Assembly: GCA_017651385.1 (NCBI GenBank)
Contig: JAGCCY010000305.1
Location: 1-6,360 of the forward strand
Length of the DNA: 6,360 bases
Direction: 5' to 3'
Origin: Lachnospiraceae bacterium
GTDB taxonomy: Bacteria; Bacillota; Clostridia; Lachnospirales; Lachnospiraceae
Shown: in pieces, positions 2,723-6,360 of the stretch
How the letters are laid out: the number at the start of each line of letters is the position of its first letter
How positions within the stretch are numbered: position 1 is the first letter of the stretch
Made by a program: the position numbers and the translations under genes
The notes under the pieces: generated by a model
Told to the model about the DNA's origin: nothing
What the model saw: the letters and a program-made list of their open reading frames with translations, nothing else
The model's database searches: none

Positions 2723-2754
2723 GTGGCGGGAGCAGGATTTCTTGCTTTCGCCAT
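2723..2754 (+). promoter_or_regulatory. long RNA hairpin in the 5' leader of the helicase gene
   Basis: As RNA, GGCGGGAGCAGG (2725-2736) pairs with CUUGCUUUCGCC (2741-2752) around an AUUU loop without mismatches, using three G-U pairs. Two more pairs (U2724-A2753, G2723-U2754) extend the stem to 14 bp. The G-U pairs would be A-C mismatches in minus-strand RNA, so the fold favours plus-strand transcripts. It ends 26 nt before the helicase ATG and leaves the ribosome binding site outside the stem. It is followed by GATTTTGTG, too weak a T-run for a confident terminator. It could act as an attenuator, an mRNA stabiliser or an autoregulatory target of the helicase (inference). Confidence 0.45.
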
Positions 2755-2771: not shown

Positions 2772-2777
2772 AGGAAG
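2772..2777 (+). promoter_or_regulatory. Shine-Dalgarno AGGAAG of the helicase gene
   Basis: AGGAAG lies close to the ATG at 2781, with 5 nt between AGGA and the start codon. An in-frame TAA at 2766-2768 rules out any longer start. Confidence 0.65.
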
Positions 2778-2780
2778 AAT

Positions 2781-4853
2781 ATGGCATATTACAGAAGAAA
2801 AAGACATAGCGGCGGACATAAGATATCGCTTTCGACGCCTGAAAATAAAGAGCTTAAAAGAAAATTCTTAAAAGAACTTTCGGATAAACGTTTCGACATC
2901 ATCAAGGAAAACATAAAGTATGTGGGCGAATACGTAAAAGCCTTTGATTTTCCGGATGTAACATACGATCACATAAAAGAAAAGATAGCAAGACAACCGC
3001 TTGAAGATATTTTTTATAGTGCTATACGCGGCGGTTCAAAGGGTAAGGGTATCAATTCGACTCTTGCCAATAAATCCTGGATGTGGAAGGCAAAGAGATC
3101 CGCTTACAATGCATCCGCATCGTATGCCGTCAATCTGATCCCGGAAGCGGCAGAGTACAGAAAACTTTCAAAGGCGGAATTCGATAAGGAATATCATGCC
3201 TTTTATATGTCGATATTTGCCCGCATCAAAGAAGATTCGCGCGATGCGTTCTTTAACGCCATCTATTCAAATCATGTATATCTTTCCTACGAACATATGC
3301 TTCTTGAAGAAGATATGAGATTTAAGGATATGATCATGGACGAGATCCCTGAGCGTATCCCTGATCTTTATCCTCTGGCCCGCAAGATGAAGCGGCGTTT
3401 TATCCTGCATGTCGGTCCCACCAACTCGGGAAAGACCTACGATGCGCTCGAAGCACTTAAAAAGTGCAATAAGGGCATATATCTCGCCCCGCTCAGACTT
3501 CTTGCGTTTGAGATATATGACAGGCTCAACGAAGCAGGGGTCTTATGCAACATGATCACCGGCGAAGAGGAGATATTCATACCCGGTGCCACTCATTCTT
3601 CGGCCACGATCGAGACCGTGAGCACGCATGAGATCTACGATATCGCCGTGATCGACGAAGGACAGATGATAGGAGAAGAGCAGCGCGGCGGTGCCTGGAC
3701 AAGGGCTATCCTCGGTGTCTGCGCCGACGAGATCCATATCTGTTCCGACGAATCCTGCGTAGATCTTATAACAGCCATCATCGAGGAATGCGGGGACACA
3801 TGGGAGATAAGGCACAATGAGCGTGCGGTCCCGCTTGTTTTCGATAAGGAAAAGTTTTCTTTCCCCGCTTCGGTAAAAGAAAAAGACGCGCTTATCGTGT
3901 TTTCCAAGCAATCCGTTATCGCAGTTGCGGCCGAGCTTCAGCAAAACGGCATAAAGGCGAGCATGATATACGGAAATCTTCCTTACGATGTGCGCATGAA
4001 CGAAGTCAGGCGATTTACGGAGGGCGAGACACAGGTTGTGGTCGCGACCGATGCTATCGGCATGGGCCTTAACCTTCCCATAAAGCGTATTGTATTCCTT
4101 GAGACCAGGAAATTCGACGGTCATAACCGCCGTCCGTTAAACGTAAGCGAGATAAAGCAGATCGCAGGCCGCGCGGGCAGACGCGGAATTTTTGAAACAG
4201 GCTATTATACTTCCGAATACCGTTCCCAGGCCATAAAGAGGGCTGTTGAAGGTTCGGTTGAGACCATATCGTATGCAAGGATGGGCATACCGGAAAATAT
4301 CATCTATCTTGACATGCCGCTTTCGGAAATACTTAAACGATGGTCGGATGTTGATTTTACAAGCCTTTACGAAAAGGCAGACCTTGAAGACGACATATCG
4401 CTTTGCAAAAAACTCGAAGCGGTAGTAAGCGACAAAAAGCTCATATACGATTTTCTGATGATCGGATTCCGCTCGTCAAAGACGTTCCTTACGGAACTGA
4501 TCCTTAAGTTTGCAAAGCTTGAAGAGGCCGGCGGCTCAAGGCTCAACGATAAGATAAACGAGGTTGTCGAGGCCAACATCGTACCGTTTGACGATGAGCT
4601 CGATCATATGAAGATGGAAGAGCTTGAAGATCTCTATCTTGTATACGATCTTATCTATGCTTATTTAAGAAAGTTTGAGCACAGGGAAAGACTTTCGGAT
4701 ATCGTGGAGCTTAAGCGCGATGTTTCGGGAAGGATAATAGAATATTTAAAGACCCAGCAGCTTGAAGGAAGGCGCTGCAGGGTCTGCGGTAAAATGCTTC
4801 CGTGGAATTATCCTTACGGAAAGTGTGAAGACTGCTATTTTATAGAAAACTAG
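2781..4853 (+). CDS. SUV3-like (SUPV3L1 family) superfamily 2 RNA helicase with C-terminal zinc knuckle
   Basis: This 690-residue predicted ATP-dependent RNA helicase has the full motif set of mitochondrial SUV3: Walker A GPTNSGKT (212-219, Lys218), Ia APLRLLAFE (236-244), Ib SATIETV (274-280), Walker B IDEGQMI (291-297; DExQ as in SUV3's DEIQ), the SUV3-typical AWTRAILGVCADEIHIC (305-321), IV LIVFSK (371-376), V VVVATDAIGMGLNLP (419-433) and VI QIAGRAGRRG (460-469). Two RecA domains span about 205-345 and 346-490. A helical segment at about 505-660 (LEDLYLVYDLIYAYLR, 615-630) fits the SUV3 C-terminal region. Residues 1-200 are charged and mostly helical, begin with a basic stretch (RRKRH), and place Walker A at nearly the same residue number as I recall for human SUV3 (Lys213). 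C666, C669, C682 and C685 form a CxxC-x12-CxxC knuckle, probably zinc-binding and not known to me in mitochondrial SUV3. SUV3 unwinds RNA for degradation with PNPase; a role in RNA turnover here is inference. There is no signal peptide, and the gene is monocistronic. Confidence 0.93.
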   Translation: MAYYRRKRHSGGHKISLSTPENKELKRKFLKELSDKRFDIIKENIKYVGEYVKAFDFPDVTYDHIKEKIARQPLEDIFYSAIRGGSKGKGINSTLANKSWMWKAKRSAYNASASYAVNLIPEAAEYRKLSKAEFDKEYHAFYMSIFARIKEDSRDAFFNAIYSNHVYLSYEHMLLEEDMRFKDMIMDEIPERIPDLYPLARKMKRRFILHVGPTNSGKTYDALEALKKCNKGIYLAPLRLLAFEIYDRLNEAGVLCNMITGEEEIFIPGATHSSATIETVSTHEIYDIAVIDEGQMIGEEQRGGAWTRAILGVCADEIHICSDESCVDLITAIIEECGDTWEIRHNERAVPLVFDKEKFSFPASVKEKDALIVFSKQSVIAVAAELQQNGIKASMIYGNLPYDVRMNEVRRFTEGETQVVVATDAIGMGLNLPIKRIVFLETRKFDGHNRRPLNVSEIKQIAGRAGRRGIFETGYYTSEYRSQAIKRAVEGSVETISYARMGIPENIIYLDMPLSEILKRWSDVDFTSLYEKADLEDDISLCKKLEAVVSDKKLIYDFLMIGFRSSKTFLTELILKFAKLEEAGGSRLNDKINEVVEANIVPFDDELDHMKMEELEDLYLVYDLIYAYLRKFEHRERLSDIVELKRDVSGRIIEYLKTQQLEGRRCRVCGKMLPWNYPYGKCEDCYFIEN

Positions 4854-4899
4854 ATGCGGCCTTAATGTAAGAGGTAAAGCTTACTTAAACCTTCGCATC
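4853..4899. terminator. nested inverted repeat at the convergent 3' ends, possible bidirectional terminator
   Basis: Three pairs of arms nest in order: GATGCG (4853-4858) with CGCATC (4894-4899), TTAA (4862-4865) with TTAA (4885-4888), and GTAAG (4867-4871) with CTTAC (4880-4884), around an 8-nt loop. Small internal loops and a bulge separate them. The structure overlaps the helicase stop codon and the last codons of the YkgJ-like gene, filling the 27-bp gap between the two convergent stops. There is no T-run on either strand, so it may stabilise 3' ends rather than terminate. Confidence 0.35.
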
Positions 4900-5534
4900 C
4901 TTTCATAGAACTGCTCATAGAAATCCCTTTTTGTGTCATATTTAGGTTCAAAGAACACACGAAGGGGCAGCCAGGAATACTTTTTAAACTCGTTTTCGTC
5001 GGTGCATTCGTCAAGGAATGCGCCGATATTTTTTGTAAAAGAATGCCAGTCTTTTATAAAACGCTCGTATTTATCAAGATCTTCAATCCCGAGCCAGTCT
5101 TTTACCAAAGCATAACCTTTATCGGGATATCTGCATTCTTTTACCTGGATTATGTAATTAAAGTTACTGTCTTCGTCGTAGAGGCGTCCTAAAGGAAAAA
5201 GCCTGCAAAATCCGGGCCGTAATGAGTGTATCGTGCATCTTCCGTTTTCATCCAGAAGCCCGCAGGCGTCGGAATCCTCCTGCATCATGATGTTTGGAAG
5301 GACCACGTTGTCGATGAGCCTTATCTCTATTTCTTTTTCGACCATTTCGGCAAAAGACTTGTCTAAAGCCTTTTCAAGGTTATAGATATCAAAAGGGTCC
5401 AAAAGGATGGTGTCGCCGACTGTCTTGCAGCATTCGCTGCAGCCCCTGCAATCATCGCATGTGACCCTTACGCTGTCATCTTTATTATAGAGTTTTCCGT
5501 CGGTTACTTCAGAAAGATCCACGTCTCTTAACAT
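4881..5534 (-). CDS. YkgJ-family cysteine cluster protein (putative zinc/iron-chelating)
   Basis: This 217-residue cytosolic protein carries the YkgJ/UPF0153 signature: C26-x2-C29-x2-C32-x2-C35-C36 near the N-terminus, then C91, C100 and IHSLRPGFCRLFPLG (102-116, containing C110), and finally C134 in QVKECR. The family is predicted to chelate a metal, zinc or an iron-sulfur cluster; some members have been linked to protein modification, but the function is unestablished. Residues about 140-217 are charged and aromatic, contain KDWLGIEDLDKYERFIKDW, and are typical of the longer clostridial members. The ATG at 5534 is the first possible start, since an in-frame TAG lies at 5546-5544. No Shine-Dalgarno precedes it. 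Instead an extended -10 sits 6 nt upstream, so the mRNA may be leaderless. The gene converges on the helicase gene and diverges from the Tet(M)-like gene. Confidence 0.88.
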   Translation of the reverse strand: MLRDVDLSEVTDGKLYNKDDSVRVTCDDCRGCSECCKTVGDTILLDPFDIYNLEKALDKSFAEMVEKEIEIRLIDNVVLPNIMMQEDSDACGLLDENGRCTIHSLRPGFCRLFPLGRLYDEDSNFNYIIQVKECRYPDKGYALVKDWLGIEDLDKYERFIKDWHSFTKNIGAFLDECTDENEFKKYSWLPLRVFFEPKYDTKRDFYEQFYERMRRFK

Positions 5535-5608: not shown

Positions 5609-6360
5609 ATGACAAAAATCTGTGCAGGGATCCTGGCCCATGTCGATGCAGGCAAGACAACGCTTTCCGAAGCGTTATTGTATAAAGCGTCCGCCATTAA
5701 GACAATGGGCAGGGTCGATCTTAAAAATACATATCTCGATACCGATTACATGGAAAAAGAACGCGGTATCACCATATATTCAAAGTCCGCGAGGCTCAAT
5801 CTCGGGGATTTTGAAATGATCCTTATCGATACTCCCGGACATGTCGATTTTTCGGCGGAAATGGAAAGAACACTTGCGGTCCTTGATATTGCGGTCCTTA
5901 TCGTATCCGCTTCGGATAAGGTTCAGGCGCACACAAAGACAGTCTGGAAGCTTCTTAAACGCTACATGATCCCGACAGTCATATTTGTCAACAAGATGGA
6001 CCTTCCGGATACGGATAAGGCCGACATCTTAAAAACCTTAAAGGAAGAACTTTCGCCCGATATCGAAGATTTTACGGACGATTCAAGCGATGAGTTTTTT
6101 GAAAACGCGGCAACCGTATCGGAAGATTTCCTTGAGGATGTTTTAAATAACGGTTTTATCCCCAAAGAGAAGTTAAAAGCTGCCTTTGAAGAAAGGCTTA
6201 TTTTTCCCTGCCTTTTCGGCTCGGCTCTTAAAAACGAAGGTGTGGACAGATTGTTTGAGGTTTTAAAGGATTATTGCCCTCAAAAATCATATCCCGATGA
6301 ATTCGGGGCGATCACCTATAAGATCACGCGCGAGAACAATATAAGGCTTTCGCACTTAAA
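5609..6360 (+). CDS. Tet(M)/Tet(W)-like ribosomal protection protein family GTPase, N-terminal part (3'-truncated by window edge)
   Basis: The first 250 residues of an EF-G-like translational GTPase are visible, and the frame stays open to the last base. G motifs: G1 AHVDAGKT (10-17), G2 ERGITI (51-56), G3 DTPGH (74-78), G4 NKMD (128-131) and G5 GSALKN (204-209). The wording around them (GILAHVDAGKTTLSEALLY, IDTPGHVDFSAEMERTL, VLDIAVLIVSASDKVQAHT) is closer to Tet(M)/Tet(O)/Tet(W) than to elongation factor G. A beta-strand region after residue 230 starts domain II. Tet(M)-type proteins remove tetracycline from the ribosome by GTP hydrolysis. Many Clostridia carry divergent chromosomal members without proven resistance, and the loops of domain IV that contact the drug site lie outside the window. 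Codon use resembles the neighbours, which argues against recent transfer. The long leader and leader peptide that attenuate tet(M) are absent; the ATG follows the promoter directly. Confidence 0.88.
   Translation, partial: MTKICAGILAHVDAGKTTLSEALLYKASAIKTMGRVDLKNTYLDTDYMEKERGITIYSKSARLNLGDFEMILIDTPGHVDFSAEMERTLAVLDIAVLIVSASDKVQAHTKTVWKLLKRYMIPTVIFVNKMDLPDTDKADILKTLKEELSPDIEDFTDDSSDEFFENAATVSEDFLEDVLNNGFIPKEKLKAAFEERLIFPCLFGSALKNEGVDRLFEVLKDYCPQKSYPDEFGAITYKITRENNIRLSHL

Follow-up and report, generated by a model that had tools for sequence, protein, structure and literature searches.

The RNA helicase SUV3, known best from mitochondria, is treated as an enzyme of organelles, and accounts of RNA decay in bacteria feature DEAD-box helicases or RNase R. 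The locus considered here, a stretch of 6,360 nucleotides from a Lachnospiraceae bacterium (the window in the following), contains a gene with the motifs of SUV3, and thus raises the question of what such a helicase does in a Gram-positive cell and where it came from.

The source genome (G000) is 72% complete and holds a single copy of the helicase gene, and a 98% identical copy was found in MAG Tb.RUG.242, also named Lachnospiraceae bacterium. The other genes of the window (Table 1) comprise the end of a DAHP synthase gene, a flavodoxin-fold reductase, an aldo/keto reductase with a ferredoxin-like domain on the strand opposite to the helicase, a CxxCxxCC protein, and the start of an EF-G/TetM-like GTPase, which lies next but one downstream of the helicase. 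No conserved neighbour gene of SUV3 was found across 49 loci. When the neighbours were clustered, the CxxCxxCC protein matched only its near-identical counterpart in locus L005; in Vitreoscilla (L046 3875-6458) a YkgJ-type cysteine-cluster protein is encoded directly before the SUV3-like gene. The region that includes the hairpin upstream of the start codon (2715-2790) has a folding energy of -27.1 kcal/mol (z -4.0), and by comparison of sequence rather than of folds the hairpin is mostly retained in L005, the 98% relative, and not in L002-L004. It is conceivable that the helicase regulates its own expression via this hairpin.

Table 1. Positions of the helicase gene, its domains and adjoining features, counted from the first nucleotide of the window.
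Feature	Position	Strand	Description	Basis
Upstream hairpin	2723..2754		14 pairs, just 5' of the helicase start codon	
Shine-Dalgarno-like site	2772..2777	+	AGGAAG ahead of the helicase ATG	sequence
SUV3-family helicase gene	2781..4853	+	690 aa, ATG start, no internal stop	
N-terminal domain	2781..3350	+	residues 1-190, all-helical	AF2, 16-row alignment
RecA1	3366..3812	+	residues 196-344, Walker A and DEXQ box	PF22527
RecA2	3876..4187	+	residues 366-469, ATDAIGMGLNLPI and QIAGRAGR	PF00271
SUV3-type C-terminal domain	4218..4763	+	about residues 480-661	fold alignment, hhalign
Four-cysteine zinc-ribbon-like tail	4776..4835	+	residues 666-685, CxxCGxxLPWNYPYGxCxxC	alignment of 63 sequences
CxxCxxCC protein	4881..5534	-	adjoins the helicase convergently	
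EF-G/TetM-like GTPase	5609..6360		first 250 codons, cut by the window end	

A sequence-only reading had assigned the gene to SUV3 from its motifs. These are present in SUV3 order and at exactly the coordinates given, with the Walker A motif GPTNSGKT at residue 212, and the assignment was borne out by family profile, searches of solved structures, fold comparison, profile-profile alignment and tree, all of which concur. The family model DEXQc_Suv3 (PF22527) passed its cut-off with a wide margin (E 5.2e-64, 214.9 bits against 27), and Helicase_C (PF00271) matched with E 1e-14 (55.1 bits). Searches with phmmer gave E 1.3e-67 against human SUPV3L1, over residues 192-640, and E 3.3e-68 against the yeast-type Suv3 (6f4a). 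Motif II has the DEXQ form (DEGQ), with D292, E293 and Q295 invariant in 63 aligned relatives, and most residues of ATDAIGMGLNL and QIAGRAGR in RecA2 are invariant or nearly so across the same set. A 47-row tree, rooted with five Ski2-like helicases, set the 42 SUV3 rows apart from this outgroup with support 100/100. The protein did not group with Ski2/Mtr4-type, DEAH or generic SF2 helicases, and its helical C-terminal region, judged by fold, is the SUV3 C-terminal domain. A Ski2/Mtr4/Hel308 identity was rejected, since neither the closest fold nor the closest sequence match lies there and the tree separates the groups, and a generic Ski2/Hel308/DEAD helicase was likewise ruled out by sequence searches, fold comparison and tree. 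The gene is thus a SUV3-family RNA helicase of Bacillota with an intact catalytic core, and the predicted activity, judged from its sequence, is ATP-dependent 3'-5' unwinding of RNA.

The C-terminal Pfam models PF18147 and PF12513 gave no direct match in the window protein. PF12513 matches only four of the 63 relatives (best E 5.3e-4), and both models seem too narrow for the Bacillota clade. A Pontibacillus protein of the same clade passes the PF12513 cut-off (29.7 against 27 bits). The VIA alignment of the predicted fold to human Suv3 extends to model residue 677, and hhalign with proteobacterial-type SUV3 extends to residue 661, covering the places of Suv3_C_1 and SUV3_C in P0231. At the other end of the protein, the N-terminal domain varies in the family, with conserved residues only just before the core in a 16-row alignment, and it had no match by fold among solved structures at E<=0.001. 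It differs greatly between relatives, whose lengths range from about 510 to 860 residues, in line with a figure legend of a review (PMC10253155) in which the N-terminal domain is the most diverse part of SUV3.

Beyond the C-terminal domain the protein ends in a four-cysteine tail, which the sequence-only reading did not mention. C666, C669, C682 and C685 are invariant in the 63 aligned family members, in the wording given in Table 1. Every one of the 18 clostridial rows of the tree set has the pattern, as do the three Cytobacillus-like rows (L045, L116, L117); Priestia has it in different wording, and Pontibacillus and G267 lack it. Outside Bacillota, two of the 16 bacterial rows carry it, and these relatives (L127, P0237; one from Azospirillum thermophilum) have tails like the clostridial one. 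The tail may hence be older than the Bacillota clade or have been gained more than once. For residues 612-690, no SUV3 chain was matched among solved structures, and Pfam zinc-ribbon models gave weak, sub-threshold matches only. The spacing of the cysteines suggests that the tail binds zinc, and it might contact RNA or a partner. A Bacillota SUV3 clade with such a tail is seemingly new.

Within Lachnospiraceae the gene is patchy. It was found in 36 of 298 genomes of a first draw, in which the carriers matched at E 4e-79 or better and the next best match was 8e-7, and in 48 of 396 of an overlapping second draw (E<=1e-40); G568 and G773 are congeners without it. SUV3 changes state 25 times on a tree of 118 genomes and 36 times on a tree of 197. 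In a survey across the phylum 96 of 398 genomes had a match to PF22527, only four of them with E below 1e-40, and this tally does not equal a count of SUV3 because the 26 weaker loci that were inspected show mostly the DEIH and QMAGRAGR motifs of Ski2-like helicases.

Carriers and non-carriers within Lachnospiraceae were compared for the 3'-5' exonucleases that accompany SUV3. The marker of RNase R was the RNB domain (PF00773). In the first draw RNB was missing from 12 of 36 genomes with SUV3 and from 16 of 262 without (Fisher p 1.2e-5). Seven of these 28 RNB-less genomes were identified by elimination, and one that had no listed handle was counted as SUV3-negative because all 36 positive handles were accounted for. 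The figures for 80 further genomes were 7/18 and 4/62 (p 0.0019); here the search covered the 18 positive genomes seen and 62 selected negative ones, a part of all the new genomes. Pooled, RNB was missing from 19 of 54 carriers and 20 of 324 non-carriers (odds ratio 8.25, p 3.5e-8). In four genera, each represented by one carrier and one non-carrier, RNase R was missing from the SUV3 carrier (g331, G457/G713; g346, G722/G472; g468, G595/G784; g524, G815/G651), and among the genomes searched no genus showed the reverse. SUV3 differed and RNase R did not in genera g1, g336, g407, g415, g439, g455 and g467. Since 35 of the 54 carriers retain RNase R, including the source genome of the window (RNB match at G000:C300), and 20 of the 324 non-carriers lack both, SUV3 is neither needed nor sufficient for the loss of RNase R. 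This link between SUV3 presence and RNase R loss seems to be new, and it is the foremost result of the analysis.

Such a link could arise if SUV3 had nothing to do with RNase R and both patterns merely followed from genes being lost and gained lineage by lineage in small genomes, an explanation that we regard as unlikely. The many state changes on both trees indicate that the gene is easily gained and lost. Genomes without RNase R are smaller (2.55 against 3.15 Mb), and among SUV3 carriers RecQ, a dispensable SF2 helicase chosen as control, is rarer where RNase R is missing (3/19 against 10/21); general gene loss therefore contributes part of the pattern. On the other hand, carriers of SUV3 are not smaller than other genomes (median 3.1 against 3.0 Mb), and in a logistic model that includes genome size SUV3 retained an odds ratio of 6.3 (p 2.2e-5, 200 genomes). 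RecQ itself was not associated with SUV3, being present in 13 of 40 carriers and 18 of 40 non-carriers, the latter all with RNB.

Shared ancestry was considered with trees built from PNPase. The smaller tree, of 118 genomes, pointed in the same direction without significance (independent pairs 5.6 against 1.7 of 16, median p 0.29; Pagel test, LR 5.07, p 0.28), which favours the by-product explanation. Eighty genomes were added after these first, non-significant tests, so that the larger tree re-examines a sample that had been enlarged in the meantime. Of 27 independent pairs on its 197 tips, 8.8 agreed with the association and 0.4 went against it (p between 0.0005 and 0.29, median 0.0078); with the traits swapped the figures were 8.2 and 0.4 of 20 (median p 0.0156), and the Pagel test gave LR 13.07 with 4 df (p 0.011; 0.019 without the contaminated genome G815). 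The trees omit G000, G790, G671 and G430, which have no whole PNPase frame, and include G575 and G796 with partial PNPase; genomes negative for both traits are under-sampled in them, a bias expected to act against a positive association. In sum, the association of SUV3 with the absence of RNase R holds when genome size is taken into account and reaches significance on the larger tree but not on the smaller one.

PNPase (marker TIGR03591) was matched in all 54 carriers of SUV3 and in 146 of the 147 non-carriers searched. By sample, it was found in 72 of 72 genomes (half with SUV3, half without), in 48 of 49 non-carriers at a strict threshold and in 80 of 80 further genomes; matches in G575, G796 and G430 were fragments, and three frames contain one in-frame stop (G000:C317:2901-4952, TAG; G790:C4, TAG; G428:C78, TAA). 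PNPase is nearly universal, and finding it in every carrier is therefore no specific pointer to it as the partner of SUV3.

Elsewhere RNase R is the dedicated exonuclease for structured RNA. According to passages of PMC5818665, secondary structure in RNA inhibits PNPase, RNase R possesses a helicase activity of its own, and yeast Suv3 unwinds in the 3'-5' direction in partnership with Dss1; human SUV3 is described as a partner of PNPase in part of PMC10253155. Given this background and the association, SUV3 could supply the unwinding for PNPase that makes RNase R dispensable. We propose, as a reading that stands about evenly between right and wrong, that the bacterial SUV3 unwinds structured RNA 3'-to-5', that PNPase would then degrade the unwound RNA, and that the pair, similar to the human mitochondrial degradosome, would overlap RNase R in function and permit its loss in some Lachnospiraceae. 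SUV3 need not be the only route by which RNase R becomes dispensable, and in the organism of the window, which has RNase R, the two enzymes would work side by side. The functional pairing of SUV3 with PNPase is a prediction of this model. If correct, the tracking of RNase R loss by SUV3 would offer a concrete explanation, open to experiment, of how certain Gram-positive anaerobes might manage with PNPase. A broader version, which we hold tentatively and would sooner expect to fail, is that bacteria have repeatedly rebuilt the division of labour of the mitochondrial degradosome, with a zinc-ribbon-tailed SUV3 and PNPase replacing RNase R in Lachnospiraceae and permitting its loss many times.

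The neighbourhood of the window suggested a different job for the helicase, namely in ribosome-linked mRNA quality control, such as clearing mRNA cut on stalled ribosomes, or in ribosome assembly, instead of bulk decay with PNPase. A match to the EF-G/TetM-like GTPase of the window was found in all 36 SUV3 genomes searched, and in six of them (G000, G668, G577, G676, G407, G446) its closest relative lies within 11 kb of SUV3, where we estimate that a single gene in a genome of 3 Mb would give about 0.3 such linkages. The full-length protein in L005 (8827-11409; 94% identical to the window GTPase over the shared 250 residues) fuses EF-G-type domains to an NYN nuclease domain of YacP-like type at its C-terminus (PF05991, E 8e-47), and it falls well under the tetracycline-resistance cut-offs (392.8 against 775 bits). 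YacP is the A-site endoribonuclease Rae1 of B. subtilis. From its domains, such a GTPase-nuclease would fit mRNA cleavage at the ribosome upstream of SUV3-assisted decay, and a fusion of this kind acting on ribosomes is worth a separate study. However, on the contigs searched no linkage was seen in 30 of the 36 genomes, two of the six belong to one genus (g281), in which inherited gene order would explain it, and in G577, where the two genes are closest, the nuclease part lies on another contig. We therefore consider a ribosome-linked role to be rather improbable.

SUV3 might instead unwind RNA for RNase R or for some other nuclease of the RNB type, as yeast Suv3 does for Dss1 (PMC5818665, PMC10253155), and 35 of the 54 carriers have RNase R. 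The other 19 have no RNB match, the opposite of what is expected for an obligate partner, which makes this a poor candidate. The sequence-only reading had left the choice between PNPase and RNase R open; given the tendency of SUV3 to be found in genomes without RNase R, PNPase would be the usual partner and RNase R the less fitting half of that suggestion.

As to the origin of the gene, two routes had been envisaged, an older and wider bacterial distribution or a transfer. The 24 Bacillota rows of the tree, which also held mitochondrial and proteobacterial SUV3, form one clade of their own (88/99) with both Bacilli and Clostridia inside and human and yeast outside, and forcing Clostridia together with the eukaryotes cost 34 log-likelihood units (p-AU 0.00017). 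These results contradict a transfer from mitochondria or Alphaproteobacteria, hardly credible in spite of the mitochondrial fame of SUV3 and of plasmid copies such as that on Butyrivibrio pCY186, and they support descent from an old bacterial SUV3 lineage. The placement of the eukaryotes among the bacterial branches, as sister to this lineage or elsewhere, has a support of just 61/36.

The wide distribution is also apparent from a protein search, in which at least 7,997 relatives were found at E<=0.001 (7,997 of 8,000 scored candidates), and SUV3-like genes lie on plasmids of Alpha-, Beta- and Gammaproteobacteria. Bacterial SUV3 is thus less unusual than the sequence-only reading implied: it is a known family, already visible in databases under labels such as 'helicase-related protein' and 'ATP-dependent RNA helicase SUPV3L1/SUV3'. 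A SUV3-like helicase is also found in the 440-kb Salicola phage SCTP-2, where its annotation reads hypothetical protein (L050 4659-6479). A second alphaproteobacterial SUV3-like type (L051, L052, L121, L122) has a branch as long as 3.0 changes per column and is not close to mitochondrial SUV3 in the tree; it adjoins S4-domain and ferredoxin genes in L051, L052 and L122, and CarD in L051 and L052. A literature search of titles and the beginnings of abstracts, with subscription papers mostly outside its scope, returned none on the function of bacterial SUV3, on a Bacillota clade with a cysteine tail or on a link to RNase R.

The closest known systems to the window helicase include human SUPV3L1/SUV3 (PDB 3rc3, 3rc8, 7w1r), the helicase that works with PNPase in the mitochondrial degradosome. 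The window protein differs in its setting, the bacterial cytoplasm, in an N-terminal domain that remains unaligned (the alignment of the model with 3rc3 starts at residue 179), and in a cysteine-tail region that matches no SUV3 chain by sequence; dimerisation of human SUV3 is reported in PMC10253155 to depend on the tail of that protein. Yeast-type Suv3 (6f4a chain B) works with the RNB nuclease Dss1, whereas RNB is often missing alongside the bacterial gene. The proteobacterial 'helicase-related proteins' of Azospirillum, Methylobacterium and Ramlibacter align over 471 columns through the C-terminal domain (hhalign E 2e-111), but sit on other branches, and of the 16 non-Bacillota bacterial rows only L127 and P0237 share the four-cysteine tail. 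With the DEAD-box helicases of degradosomes, RhlB and CshA, the window protein would share the job of unwinding RNA for PNPase, although it belongs to a different SF2 family, and the CshA and RhlB models match its RecA2 region only, far under cut-off. A SUV3 that is widespread in bacteria and whose presence goes with RNase R loss suggests bacterial parallels to the PNPase-SUV3 pairing of human mitochondria.
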